Shown piece after piece: positions 27,318 to 51,492 of a DNA stretch of 64,000 bases. The stretch is from positions 1 to 64,000 of the forward strand of contig JANQQW010000194.1 in assembly GCA_028284885.1 (NCBI GenBank). The letters are read 5' to 3'. Both the position numbers and the translations under genes were made by a program. The stretch comes from Planctomycetaceae bacterium. Lineage in GTDB: Bacteria; Planctomycetota; Planctomycetia; Planctomycetales; Planctomycetaceae. The notes under the pieces were generated by a model that had not been told where the DNA came from, made no database searches, and saw only the letters and a list, made by a program, of their open reading frames with translations. Each line of letters begins with the position of its first letter. Positions within the stretch are counted from its first letter, which is position 1.

Positions 27318-28628
27318 ATGGACGGGATCTCGCTGCTCGCGGCAGCTGTCGGTCTGCTCACTCTGCTCGGTGTCTGGGAGGCGACGGCCCACCGGCGGCG
27401 CCTCGCCCGCATTCCCGTTCGCGTCCACGTGAACGGCACCCGCGGCAAGTCGAGCGTCACCCGGCTCGTCGCCGCCGGCCTCCGCGCCGGCGGGCACCGC
27501 GTCGTCGCCAAGACGACCGGCACGCTCCCCCGCCTGATCCTCCCCGACGGCCGCGAGGAGCCGATCCACCGACGGGGCAGGGCGAACGTCATCGAGCAGG
27601 TCGGGATCGTCCGACGTGCCGTCGCCGAACGGGCCGAAGTCCTCGTGCTCGAGTGCATGGCCCTACAGCCCACGCTGCAGTCGCTGTGCGAACTCGACCT
27701 CGTCCGCTCGACGCACGGCGTCGTCACGAACGCCCGGCCGGACCACCTCGACGTGATGGGCCCCACCCCCCGCGACGTCGCGAAGGCCCTCGCCGGCACC
27801 ACGCCCAGGAACGCCCGACTCTACACGGCCGAGCGGAAGTTGATCGACGTCTTCGTCGACGCGTGCCGCGACCGGAAGTCGATCCTCGCCCCCACGACCG
27901 CCTTCGACGTGGCGTGCGTGACCGACGACGACCTCCGCGGCTTCTCGTACCTGGAACACGCCGACAACGTCGCCCTCGCCCTGCGCGTCTGCGACGACGT
28001 CGGCGTCGACCGCCGGACGGCCCTCGCCGGCATGTGGGCCGCCACGCCCGACCCTGGGGCCCTCACCGTCGATCACCTCGTGCACGGCCTCGGCCGCAGC
28101 GTCTTCGTCAACGGCTTCGCGGCGAACGACCCGGAGTCCACGGCCGGCAACTGGAACGTCGTCCGCGACCGTTTCCCGGAGACGACTCGCGGCGTCGCCG
28201 TCGTCAACTGCCGCGAGGACCGTAGCGACCGCACCGAACAACTCGCCGAGATGTGCGCGACCCTCGAAGGCCTCGACTCGATCGTCCTCGTCGGCACCGG
28301 CACGGCCCTCTTCACGCGGCGCTACGAACAACTGCGCAGCGAGCGGACAAGAAGTCCGCGAGCGGAGCACGTGAGCCGAGCCGAGTTCGGCAGTCAGGAA
28401 GACTGCGGAACACGAGCGCGGGGAACCAAGAACACCGAACACGTCGTGATCCACGACATGAGCAACCGATCCGTCGCCGACGTCGCCGAGGCCGCCGTGC
28501 GGTTCGGCGGGTCGGCCGGCAGGATCGTCGGCATGGGAAACGTCGCGGGCCCTGGTCTGGAGTTGGTGCGCTGGTTCGAGGAGCGAGCCGGGCACCCCGA
28601 AACATCCCCTTGGCAGGAGGCCGCATGA
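27318..28628 (+). CDS. pgsB: poly-gamma-glutamate synthase subunit PgsB/CapB
   Basis: A 436-aa ligase of the Mur-ligase-like PgsB family, which activates glutamate carboxyls with ATP to build the gamma-linked polymer. A short N-terminal hydrophobic helix (about 4-20) precedes the P-loop GTRGKSS at 40-46; TNARPDHLDVMG is the second conserved block. Odd point: residues about 338-371 (RSERTRSPRAEHVSRAEF and on) have no counterpart in the family and are encoded by a two-hairpin dispersed repeat (28331-28430) that has inserted without breaking the frame. The stop overlaps the pgsC start (ATGA). The start at 27318 matches the family N-terminus. Confidence 0.88.
   Translation: MDGISLLAAAVGLLTLLGVWEATAHRRRLARIPVRVHVNGTRGKSSVTRLVAAGLRAGGHRVVAKTTGTLPRLILPDGREEPIHRRGRANVIEQVGIVRRAVAERAEVLVLECMALQPTLQSLCELDLVRSTHGVVTNARPDHLDVMGPTPRDVAKALAGTTPRNARLYTAERKLIDVFVDACRDRKSILAPTTAFDVACVTDDDLRGFSYLEHADNVALALRVCDDVGVDRRTALAGMWAATPDPGALTVDHLVHGLGRSVFVNGFAANDPESTAGNWNVVRDRFPETTRGVAVVNCREDRSDRTEQLAEMCATLEGLDSIVLVGTGTALFTRRYEQLRSERTRSPRAEHVSRAEFGSQEDCGTRARGTKNTEHVVIHDMSNRSVADVAEAAVRFGGSAGRIVGMGNVAGPGLELVRWFEERAGHPETSPWQEAA
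28331..28430 (+). repeat. two-hairpin dispersed repeat, copy A (inside pgsB)
   Basis: A 100-nt element matching the reverse strand of 34881-34980 at 87 of 100 positions with no gap. Hairpin 1 is GCGGAC-AAGAA-GTCCGC (28342-28358). Hairpin 2 is CAGTC-AGGAA-GACTG (28390-28404), extendable to 11 pairs with one mismatch. It is read in frame as part of PgsB. Confidence 0.8.
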
Positions 28629-29095
28629 TGGAGTCGATTCCCCTCGTGATCGGGATCGGGCTGCTCGTCAGCCTGATGGTGACGGAACTGTACGGCCTGT
28701 CGGCCGGCGGCATGGTCGTGCCGGGCTACCTCGCCCTGTACCTGCACCGTCCGGAGTGCATCGTCGCGACGCTCGTCGCGGCCCTCCTCACCTGCGTCGC
28801 CGTCCGCGGCATCTCGTCCGTGGCGATCGTCTACGGCCGCCGGCGGACGGTGATCACGCTCGTCGTCGGCTTCCTGTTCGGGGCGTTGGCGAGATCGGTC
28901 GCCGACTGTGCCGGCTGCAGCACGCTCGCCGTCGTCGGGCTCGAAGGACTCACCGTCATCGGCTTCGTCATCCCCGGGCTGCTCGCCATCTGGATCGAAC
29001 GGCAGGGCCTCGTCGAAACGGTCGGCGTCTCGCTCACCTCGAGTGCCCTCGTCCGGCTCGTCCTGCTCGTCGTCGGAACGGGAGTGCTGGCATGA
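28625..29095 (+). CDS. pgsC: poly-gamma-glutamate biosynthesis protein PgsC
   Basis: A 156-aa integral membrane protein of the PgsC/CapC family with about five hydrophobic helices. The motif ELYGLSAGGMVVPGYLALYL (about 15-34) is the family hallmark. PgsC forms the membrane part of the polymer synthase with PgsB. It overlaps the pgsB stop (ATGA at 28625-28628) and its own stop overlaps the pgsW start in the same way, which indicates coupled translation of a three-subunit complex. Confidence 0.9.
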   Translation: MMESIPLVIGIGLLVSLMVTELYGLSAGGMVVPGYLALYLHRPECIVATLVAALLTCVAVRGISSVAIVYGRRRTVITLVVGFLFGALARSVADCAGCSTLAVVGLEGLTVIGFVIPGLLAIWIERQGLVETVGVSLTSSALVRLVLLVVGTGVLA

Positions 29096-30246
29096 AACGC
29101 GTCTACTGGTCGGCCCGCAAGGTCTCGCGGCCGCTGATCCTGCTGCTCACGGTCGTCGCCCTCGGGGCGGTCGCCGTCGTCGAGACGTGGCCTCGCCGCG
29201 AGACGGGCGACCTCGCCGAGACGAAGCTCGCCGCCGCCCAGCTCGCCGAGCGGGCGATGGACGAACTCAAGGCGGAACGCCTCCGCCGCGGCATCCCCAT
29301 CGACCCCGAACTCGACCCGGCCGAGACCGGCATGATCGGGGCCGTCGAAACACCGACGACGAGCGTCATGGGACATCTTGGGGCGAAGCAGTCGACCGTG
29401 AACCCGAACTGGGCGGCCGTCCTCGTCGAGATGTTCCACGAGGCCGGCGTTCAGCCGGGCGACCGGATCGCCATCGGCTGGTCCGGCTCGTTCCCGGCCC
29501 TCAACCTCTGCACGCTGGCCGCCGTCGAGGCGATCGGGGCGGAGCCGGTCGCCATCGCGAGCGTCGGCTCGTCGCAGTACGGGGCGAACTACCCGGAGTG
29601 GCCGTGGATCGAGATGGAACGGCACCTGTTCGAGCAGGGCGTCACTCAGCACCGCTCCGTCGCCGTCTCCCGCGGCGGGTTCGAGGACCGGGCCCTCCAC
29701 ATGAGCGACGAGGGCCGTGCACTCATCGACGAGGCGATCGCCCGCAGCGGCCTGCCGAAGGTCGAGTCGACGAACTTCGACGACTCGCTCGGCGAGCGGA
29801 TGGCGATCTACGACCAGCACTCCGAAGGCGAGCCGTTCGCGGCCTACGTGAACGTCGGCGGTGGAACGGTCTCGGTCGGCCACGGCGTCGGCAAACGCCT
29901 CTACGCCCCCGGCCTCAACCTCCAGCCCCCGCCCGCCGCCACCAACATTGACTCCATCCTTACGCGCTTCGCCACCCGCGGCGTTCCGCTCGTCCACCTC
30001 AGCAGCGTCCGCGACCTCGCCATCTCCTACGGCCTCCCCACGGAACCGAACCCCCGCCCGATCGCCGGCACCGGCTCGGCCTTCGAAGCGGCCCCCAACC
30101 GAGCCGTCTCCATCGTCGCCCTGGCGATCGTCGTCGGCCTGATGCTGCTGATCACCCTGCGACGCAATCGACAGGAACCCCCCCAGGAATCGGAACCCCC
30201 GAAGACCTTCCCGGTCCACCCGGAGCCGACCTCACGAGCGGCGTGA
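29092..30246 (+). CDS. pgsW: poly-gamma-glutamate system protein PgsW
   Basis: A 384-aa membrane-anchored protein of the poly-gamma-glutamate system family, found beside pgsB-pgsC mainly in non-Firmicutes. An N-terminal membrane helix (about 13-31) is followed by a large extracytoplasmic part containing MGHLGAKQSTVNPNWAAV and IGWSGSFPALNLCTLAAVE, and a C-terminal helix (about 342-362). Function is unknown; it may replace PgsA in export or chain release. No pgsA/capA-type gene is present in the window. The gene overlaps pgsC by four bases. Confidence 0.82.
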   Translation: MKRVYWSARKVSRPLILLLTVVALGAVAVVETWPRRETGDLAETKLAAAQLAERAMDELKAERLRRGIPIDPELDPAETGMIGAVETPTTSVMGHLGAKQSTVNPNWAAVLVEMFHEAGVQPGDRIAIGWSGSFPALNLCTLAAVEAIGAEPVAIASVGSSQYGANYPEWPWIEMERHLFEQGVTQHRSVAVSRGGFEDRALHMSDEGRALIDEAIARSGLPKVESTNFDDSLGERMAIYDQHSEGEPFAAYVNVGGGTVSVGHGVGKRLYAPGLNLQPPPAATNIDSILTRFATRGVPLVHLSSVRDLAISYGLPTEPNPRPIAGTGSAFEAAPNRAVSIVALAIVVGLMLLITLRRNRQEPPQESEPPKTFPVHPEPTSRAA

Positions 30247-34600: not shown

Positions 34601-34941
34601 AGGTGCCGGTTGACCGACTCGTGCGTGCGGAGCGTGGGGAGCACGTCCACGAAGCGGAACATCTGCACCTTGACCGACTCGTCCTGCATCGCCCAGTCGA
34701 GCAGTTGGTCGTCCCACCAGCGTCGTTCGAAGATCGACGGGCTGCGGCGGCCGATGCGGCGGAACAGCTCCCGGCCGAGCGACTGCGTGGCGAGTTCGAC
34801 CGGATCGTCGGCGGGGCTGAGCGTGTCCGCCGACTTCTTCTGGGGCTTCTTCCTTGCCAACGTCGTCGTCCGTGTCCGGTTCTTGGTTCGCCTCGCTCGT
34901 GTTTCGCCGTCTTCCTGACGGCCGAACACGGCTTGGCTCAC
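31687..34941 (-). CDS. putA: bifunctional proline dehydrogenase / P5C dehydrogenase
   Basis: A 1084-aa PutA-type enzyme oxidising proline to glutamate in two steps. The proline dehydrogenase barrel occupies about 60-480 (VKLSALFSRF, HVDMEHYAYKD, VRLVKGAYWDFE) and the aldehyde dehydrogenase about 590-1060, with the catalytic C870 in GQKCSACSR and the general base in AEMGGKNAI. No N-terminal DNA-binding domain is present, so it is not a trifunctional regulator. Odd points: the first 25 residues (GTG start) are encoded by copy B of the two-hairpin repeat, and residues about 508-533 in the domain linker come from a 23-nt inverted repeat pair. An internal start nearer residue 30 is possible. Confidence 0.93.
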   Translation of the reverse strand: MSQAVFGRQEDGETRARRTKNRTRTTTLARKKPQKKSADTLSPADDPVELATQSLGRELFRRIGRRSPSIFERRWWDDQLLDWAMQDESVKVQMFRFVDVLPTLRTHESVNRHLHEYFEEVRSHLPWAARLGLDVTDNAILGKALAVNARSNARRMAQRFIAGSNVEEVLQSVAKLRKSGYAFTLDLLGEAVVSEPEAERYQQQYLDLVNGLAPSVAQWPENVQLDRDEQGPIPRVNVSVKLSALFSRFRPVDPVGTAEGVKQRLRPILRAAREHDAYVHVDMEHYAYKDLTFEIFKQVLMEDEFRDFPDAGIVVQAYLADAEEDLRMLREWVEERGTPVWIRLVKGAYWDFETVHARAYGWPIPVYLAKWQSDACFERCTDYLFQNHAWLRPAIASHNLRSLAHACARAESLDVDPAAWEIQLLYGMGEEFAQLFTEMGHRVRVYTPFGELIPGMAYLVRRLLENTSNDSFLQQSVSTDTPIDKLLESPIETGSAHVAELEAAGFFDVEHTSGVQDAPDSNASRHTGGVPHVLDPRTLSDAQITTLHPQLAMPDFANEPHSDFAESDARNAMQEALSEVSQLLGREYQLVIGGRPIETKSEIASYDPSVAGRIVGRIAAAGPDDVVEAIDTARRAQPEWGAVSADHRAEYLELVAGEMRERRFELAAWQVFECGKPWDEADADVAEAIDFCVYYAREMRRLAEPRQCDVPGEENAYWYRPRGVAVVIAPWNFPLAILTGMTAAAVVAGNTVVMKPAEQSSVVAAKLMEIFQDVHLPAGVVNYLPGVGEEIGPELVNSPDVDLIAFTGSRQVGLAIYEAAANTDPRQTNVKKVLAEMGGKNAIIVDEDADLDEAVAGVVHAAFGYAGQKCSACSRAVVLADAYDAFLERLVPAVASLKVGAAEDPATQVGPVIDEEARDRILAAIEAVKSADPEDEDAPELVHATEVDDDGTYVGPHVFANVRPDHPLAQNELFGPVLAVIKVKDLDEAFEVANGTDYALTGGIFSRSPKNLDRARREFQVGNLYLNRGCTGALVNRHPFGGFKMSGIGTKAGGPDYLHEFLVPVNVTENTLRRGFAPPPDEEK
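33345..33418. repeat. inverted repeat pair inside putA linker
   Basis: 33345-33367 and 33396-33418 are reverse complements with one mismatch in 23, separated by 28 bases. Each arm is itself near-palindromic around GCACACC...GGTGTGC. The insert is read in frame between the two catalytic domains of PutA (encoding HTSGV and TGGVPH). Confidence 0.75.
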
Positions 34942-34980
34942 GTGCTCCGCTGGCGGACGTGCGGTCCGCTCACTGCGCAG
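34881..34980 (-). repeat. two-hairpin dispersed repeat, copy B (5' end of putA)
   Basis: Second copy of the 100-nt element. Hairpin 1 keeps the GCGGAC/GTCCGC stem but has loop CGCAC instead of AAGAA. Hairpin 2 is CCGTC-AGGAA-GACGG, so the A:T pair of copy A has become C:G on both sides. It supplies the first codons of putA and the DNA just upstream. Confidence 0.8.
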
Positions 34981-50421: not shown

Positions 50422-50760
50422 TCAGAGGGCGTCGGGGCCGGTCTCGCCGGTGCGGATCCGGACGACGTCGGCCAGCTCGGTGATGAAGATCTTGCCGTCG
50501 CCCACCTCGCCGGTGCGGGCGGACTCGATGATCGCGTCGATCGCCTTCTGCTGCTGGTCGTCGGCGACGACGACCTGCACGCAGATCTTCGGGACGAAGT
50601 CCACGACGTACTCGGTGCCGCGGTAGACCTCCTTGTGGCCGCGTTGCCTGCCGAACCCGCGGACCTCGACGACGGTCATGCCGGTGATCCCGGCCTTCGC
50701 GAGGGCGTTCTTCACGTCCTCGAGCTTGTAGTGCCGTACGATCGCCTCGATGCGTCGCAT
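50422..50760 (-). CDS. glnB: PII nitrogen regulatory protein
   Basis: A 112-aa PII trimer subunit. The T-loop is complete, with the uridylylation site Y51 in YRGTEYVVD. The ATP/2-oxoglutarate-binding C-terminal motif GDGKIFITELADVVRIRTGE is also intact. Second of two PII copies, directly before glnD. It senses 2-oxoglutarate and ATP/ADP and is the likely target of the neighbouring GlnD. Confidence 0.94.
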   Translation of the reverse strand: MRRIEAIVRHYKLEDVKNALAKAGITGMTVVEVRGFGRQRGHKEVYRGTEYVVDFVPKICVQVVVADDQQQKAIDAIIESARTGEVGDGKIFITELADVVRIRTGETGPDAL

Positions 50761-50940
50761 GGGTTCGTGCCTGCTTGGAGGGGCCGTTGGAGCGGAAGGC
50801 GGGACGAACGAGCGCGGACCCGAGCTGCCGCCGGTGAGGATTCTAGGTCGTCGGGGTGAGGGTTGTCGCCCTCGAACCTCCACAGCCGGGGGGCTCGAGG
50901 TCGGTCCCGAACGGAGGGCGAGGAGGGCGACCCGGCGCGG

Positions 50941-51492
<552 letters not shown>

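Follow-up and report, generated by a model that had tools for sequence, protein, structure and literature searches.

The 34 codons inserted in the poly-gamma-glutamate synthase gene pgsB of the 64,000-nucleotide stretch of DNA analysed here (the window) very probably represent a copy of a REP/MITE-like repeat, a lineage-specific DNA palindrome about 100 bases long which forms two hairpins. The earlier note had described a segment of pgsB as one of two copies of such a repeat, and this was borne out with slightly shifted edges. Both copies are of the A+B type. The intragenic one occupies positions 28332-28433 on the forward strand (covariance model R1, 116 bits, E 2e-21) and the second, extragenic one positions 34879-34980 on the reverse strand (112.9 bits with the same model). 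The two are mutually inverted and 87% identical, and the ends of the repeat are CAGCGCAG...CCAAGAAC. The two-hairpin shape was also confirmed, since each copy folded into two hairpins with sense-strand energies well below those of dinucleotide shuffles (z = -5.0 for the pgsB copy and -3.6 for the other). According to the fold and the consensus structure, hairpin A of the pgsB copy (28334-28368, forward strand) has the stem GCGCAGCGAGCGGAC / GTCCGCGAGCGGAGC broken by G.A mismatches, and hairpin B with its outer stem spans approximately 28372-28426 on the same strand. Read directly from the sequence, the G.A mismatches are spaced regularly along the stems of the window copies. Two other repeated structures were seen in the window. 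The arms 1-100 and 110-209, with which the contig begins, are 99% complementary and are most likely a fold-back assembly artefact, and a 300-nt stretch occurs within 50422-51240 in two direct copies which are 78% identical and start 519 nt apart.

The host gene pgsB (27318-28628, forward strand; TIGR04012, 437.5 bits) shows a coding signal before and after the insert. It is followed on the same strand by pgsC (28625-29095; TIGR04011 and PF14102) and by a gene for a poly-gamma-glutamate system protein (29092-30246; TIGR04332, 309.7 bits). The insert, LRSERTRSPRAEHVSRAEFGSQEDCGTRARGTKN, keeps the reading frame over its 34 codons and contains no stop, as had been claimed. The claim that about 34 added residues are absent from the PgsB family proved correct as well: the stretch between two conserved landmarks measures 88 residues here, compared with 54-61 in 84 PgsB relatives (exactly 56 in 72 of them), a net gain of 32 residues. 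This gain argues against the segment being an ancestral part of PgsB, a possibility which was rejected because the segment is missing from the 84 relatives and also from both pgsB genes of one genome of the same family, the empty site being judged at the protein level against distant orthologues. Among 170 genomes of the family, pgsB was found only in that genome and in the present one, which suggests, although it is unproven, that this lineage acquired the operon and that the repeat entered it later. The nearest PgsB matches are from Pirellulales MAGs, which points to a planctomycete-like bacterium.

The insert does not share the codon bias of its host. Its GC content is flat over the three codon positions (0.65/0.65/0.68), whereas the pgsB sequences flanking it show 0.73/0.50/0.92 and 0.72/0.52/0.84. 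All 48 residues that are invariant in 25 PgsB relatives are kept, so the PgsB carrying the insert is probably functional as judged from its sequence, and a pseudogene is unlikely with both the frame and the invariant residues intact. In the AlphaFold2 model the insert forms a loop that joins a helix to a strand in an otherwise confident fold (pLDDT below 50 at residues 352-378, mean of the whole model 87). Such low confidence is expected for any insert without aligned relatives and thus shows the position of the segment rather than its disorder. The approximately 34 inserted residues are probably floppy.

A genome-wide covariance-model search, proposed in the earlier note and run with a model built from 13 full A+B copies, gave 48 matches in the 6.47-Mb assembly, far beyond chance, so that the family numbers about 48 copies. 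The first hairpin is common to the family, and the second is either of type B (GTGTTCGGCCGTC..GACGGCGGAACAC) or of type C (GCGTGCGGTGGCGGAGCCACGGGCACGC), both of which combine with first hairpins of the same kinds. Copies are found singly, in tandem and in both orientations, also in convergent and divergent intergenic gaps and between the tRNA genes of two tRNA clusters. One of these clusters comprises 9 tRNA genes (locus L012 on contig C148, 2048-3445) and the other 16 (locus L026 on contig C110, 6334-9719). The latter also carries, between its tRNA genes, a second and unrelated intergenic palindromic repeat, GAGTCGAGAGTC...AGAGCCGGAGCAGGCATGG...GACTCTCGACTC, which lies at 7023-9631 of L026 and on many other contigs. 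This unrelated repeat gave 46 BLAST matches, several of them between tRNA genes, and its GGAGCAGG end is often adjoined by the two-hairpin repeat.

Outside this genome, the covariance-model searches gave no match to the family in 58 relatives, in any other of the 170 genomes searched in the family or in any other of the 392 genomes sampled across the phylum, the searches over 40 genomes being run with stricter filters. The repeat had no match in plasmids and, in a scan for one core pattern, none in viral contigs; spread by a plasmid or virus was rejected on these grounds. A description of this repeat did not turn up in our searches of the literature.

The pgsB copy is the exception within an extragenic family. 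Of 47 mapped copies, 46 lie outside genes, the sole intragenic one being that in pgsB, and among independent loci 31 of 32 are extragenic although coding sequence makes up 82% of the window. This census relied on gene calls from a simple codon-usage method that had been trained on the window genes, and three copies overlapping called gene starts by 44-62 nt were counted as cases of uncertain starts. The copy at 34879-34980 lies immediately upstream of putA, about 18 nt from the likely start codon, a TTG near 34860; residue 24, counted from this TTG, is where the PutA_N domain begins. Flank reading placed another copy directly in front of an EF-Tu-like gene on contig C206. At locus L148 (3071-3171), a copy stops just before an apparent ribosome-binding site and the start of an EF-Tu-like gene in the same sense.

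Pairing in the stems is conserved throughout the family. It is kept in 93% of cells, and 22 of the 28 pairs show two-sided changes; the covariation reached 0.421, compared with 0.122 for shuffled and at most 0.106 for slid alignments, the alignment being fitted to the structure, which inflates absolute pairing values and would, if anything, favour G-U over A-C. The two-sided change in hairpin 2 on which the earlier note had built its argument for selected structure is real: the A:T pair is private to the pgsB copy, and the other 12 of the 13 aligned A+B copies have C:G. The same copy has one uncompensated stem change, A.A where T:A is normal. Family-wide, the argument thus holds as far as conservation of pairing is concerned. 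It is not supported for selection on the structure within pgsB, or for selection of an RNA, as the family is extragenic and its stems contain G-U and A-C in a ratio of 37:29.

This ratio bears directly on the alternative that the element is a structured RNA (a leader, a small RNA or a processing site) whose fold is under selection, the copy in pgsB then having its effect on the mRNA. The strong covariation speaks for it, and so do the orientation of the element in the sense of the neighbouring genes at 13 of 17 codirectional sites and the copies in the putA leader and upstream of the EF-Tu-like gene on C206. Under selection of an RNA, however, an excess of G-U over A-C would be expected on that strand, as is seen in the tRNAs of the same genome (26:4 in the acceptor and T stems of 25 tRNAs), and the repeat stems do not show this (Fisher p = 0.005; for the 33 best copies 20:13, p = 0.025; both values approximate, the copies being related). 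Further points against a selected RNA are the tandem copies, the occurrence in either orientation and in gaps between convergent as well as divergent genes, and the absence of the family from the relatives searched. Rfam 15 at curated thresholds returned only tRNAs from five loci rich in copies, and a known Rfam element was rejected on this basis. We therefore consider a structured RNA unlikely. The pairing is best read as that of a palindrome maintained as DNA, via mobility or arm-to-arm correction, because the family is extragenic except for pgsB and its wobble pairs lack the excess over A-C mismatches that is seen in the tRNAs. Counting G-U against A-C with a genome's own tRNAs as a control is a cheap test separating DNA palindromes from selected RNA hairpins, and it is useful where covariation alone looks convincing.

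We infer that the palindromic repeat moves as a non-autonomous mobile element and that its DNA hairpins play a part in this movement; it has spread to the approximately 48 detectable sites, nearly all of them intergenic. The movement does not look recent, nor the family freshly active, since no target-site duplication was detected (the flanks matched no better than shuffled flanks, 54/200) and, among the copies that were compared with the one in pgsB, even the nearest shares only 93% identity with it. Terminal inverted repeats were not seen on inspection of the aligned ends. A Y1/RAYT partner was sought and rejected, as none is linked: the genome contains four Y1_Tnp genes, and no copy of the element lies near any of them. 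The best of these genes (contig C94) is flanked by a palindrome that differs from the two-hairpin repeat. A 148-aa Y1 transposase at locus L154 (1380-2030) lies inside its own inverted palindrome, GGGTGCGCTCCCG..GTCGCGACCC; the palindrome of this RAYT-like gene has just two more loose matches genome-wide and thus almost no repeats. A more elaborate proposal, that the repeat is a modular DNA-hairpin element in which the first hairpin is constant and the second interchangeable, that its movement depends on a type of enzyme new to such repeats, and that the pgsB copy has been kept as a working part of PgsB, appears distinctly improbable.

An in-frame copy is not surprising in itself, because about four of the six frames of any copy are free of stops (mean 3.9/6 in full copies). 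For a copy and a frame both drawn at random, the chance of finding a length divisible by three together with an open frame is about 15%; of 40 full copies, 10 have such a length, which is not above chance. The pgsB copy may have survived because it was a multiple of three, contained no stops and landed in a helix-strand loop of PgsB that would tolerate about 34 floppy residues. With most frames open and selection on pgsB removing the other outcomes, no special adaptation to genes is needed. The repeat is similar, as compared by description, to the Rickettsia palindromic elements (RPE): it is a palindrome of similar length, open in most frames, with one in-frame insertion forming a tolerated segment of a conserved enzyme. 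Nearly half of the Rickettsia elements lie within genes, in frame (PMC10969869), whereas 1 of 47 copies does so here. Together with the chance-level frequency of multiple-of-three lengths, this makes an RPE-like repeat specialised for in-frame gene insertion highly improbable, and the repeat was not filed as an RPE because its genomic habit is wrong. That the insert has been co-opted, its 34 extra residues now being useful in PgsB, agrees with the intact frame and invariant residues but has hardly any likelihood in view of the missing host codon bias and the low AlphaFold2 confidence across the insert.

Among other known systems, the palindromic DNA repeat resembles REP, BIME and REPIN sequences in being short, palindromic, extragenic, lineage-specific and present in many copies, which occur singly and in clusters and in both orientations. 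It differs from them in its length of about 100 bases, in its two dissimilar hairpins and in the lack of a linked RAYT, the four Y1_Tnp genes having no repeat nearby; it was not filed as a REPIN for this last reason. On inspection, the consensus also lacked a fixed GTAG or CGTC tag at the foot of the hairpin; these tags mark the two superfamilies described in PMC3733652. An integron attC site was dismissed, as inspection of the repeat ends showed no RYYYAAC / GTTRRRY cores. Bacterial MITEs such as ERIC are similarly non-coding, structured and mostly intergenic with rare intragenic copies; ERIC is normally intergenic, with some intragenic copies known (PMC10969869). In contrast to MITEs, neither terminal inverted repeats nor a target duplication were seen here, for which reason the repeat was not filed as a MITE, and a search for Y1_Tnp genes found no parental insertion sequence. 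The pgsB copy is a clear case, outside Rickettsiales, of a palindromic repeat joining a conserved enzyme, and the census presents it as a rare survivor of a family kept out of genes rather than as the family's way of life.
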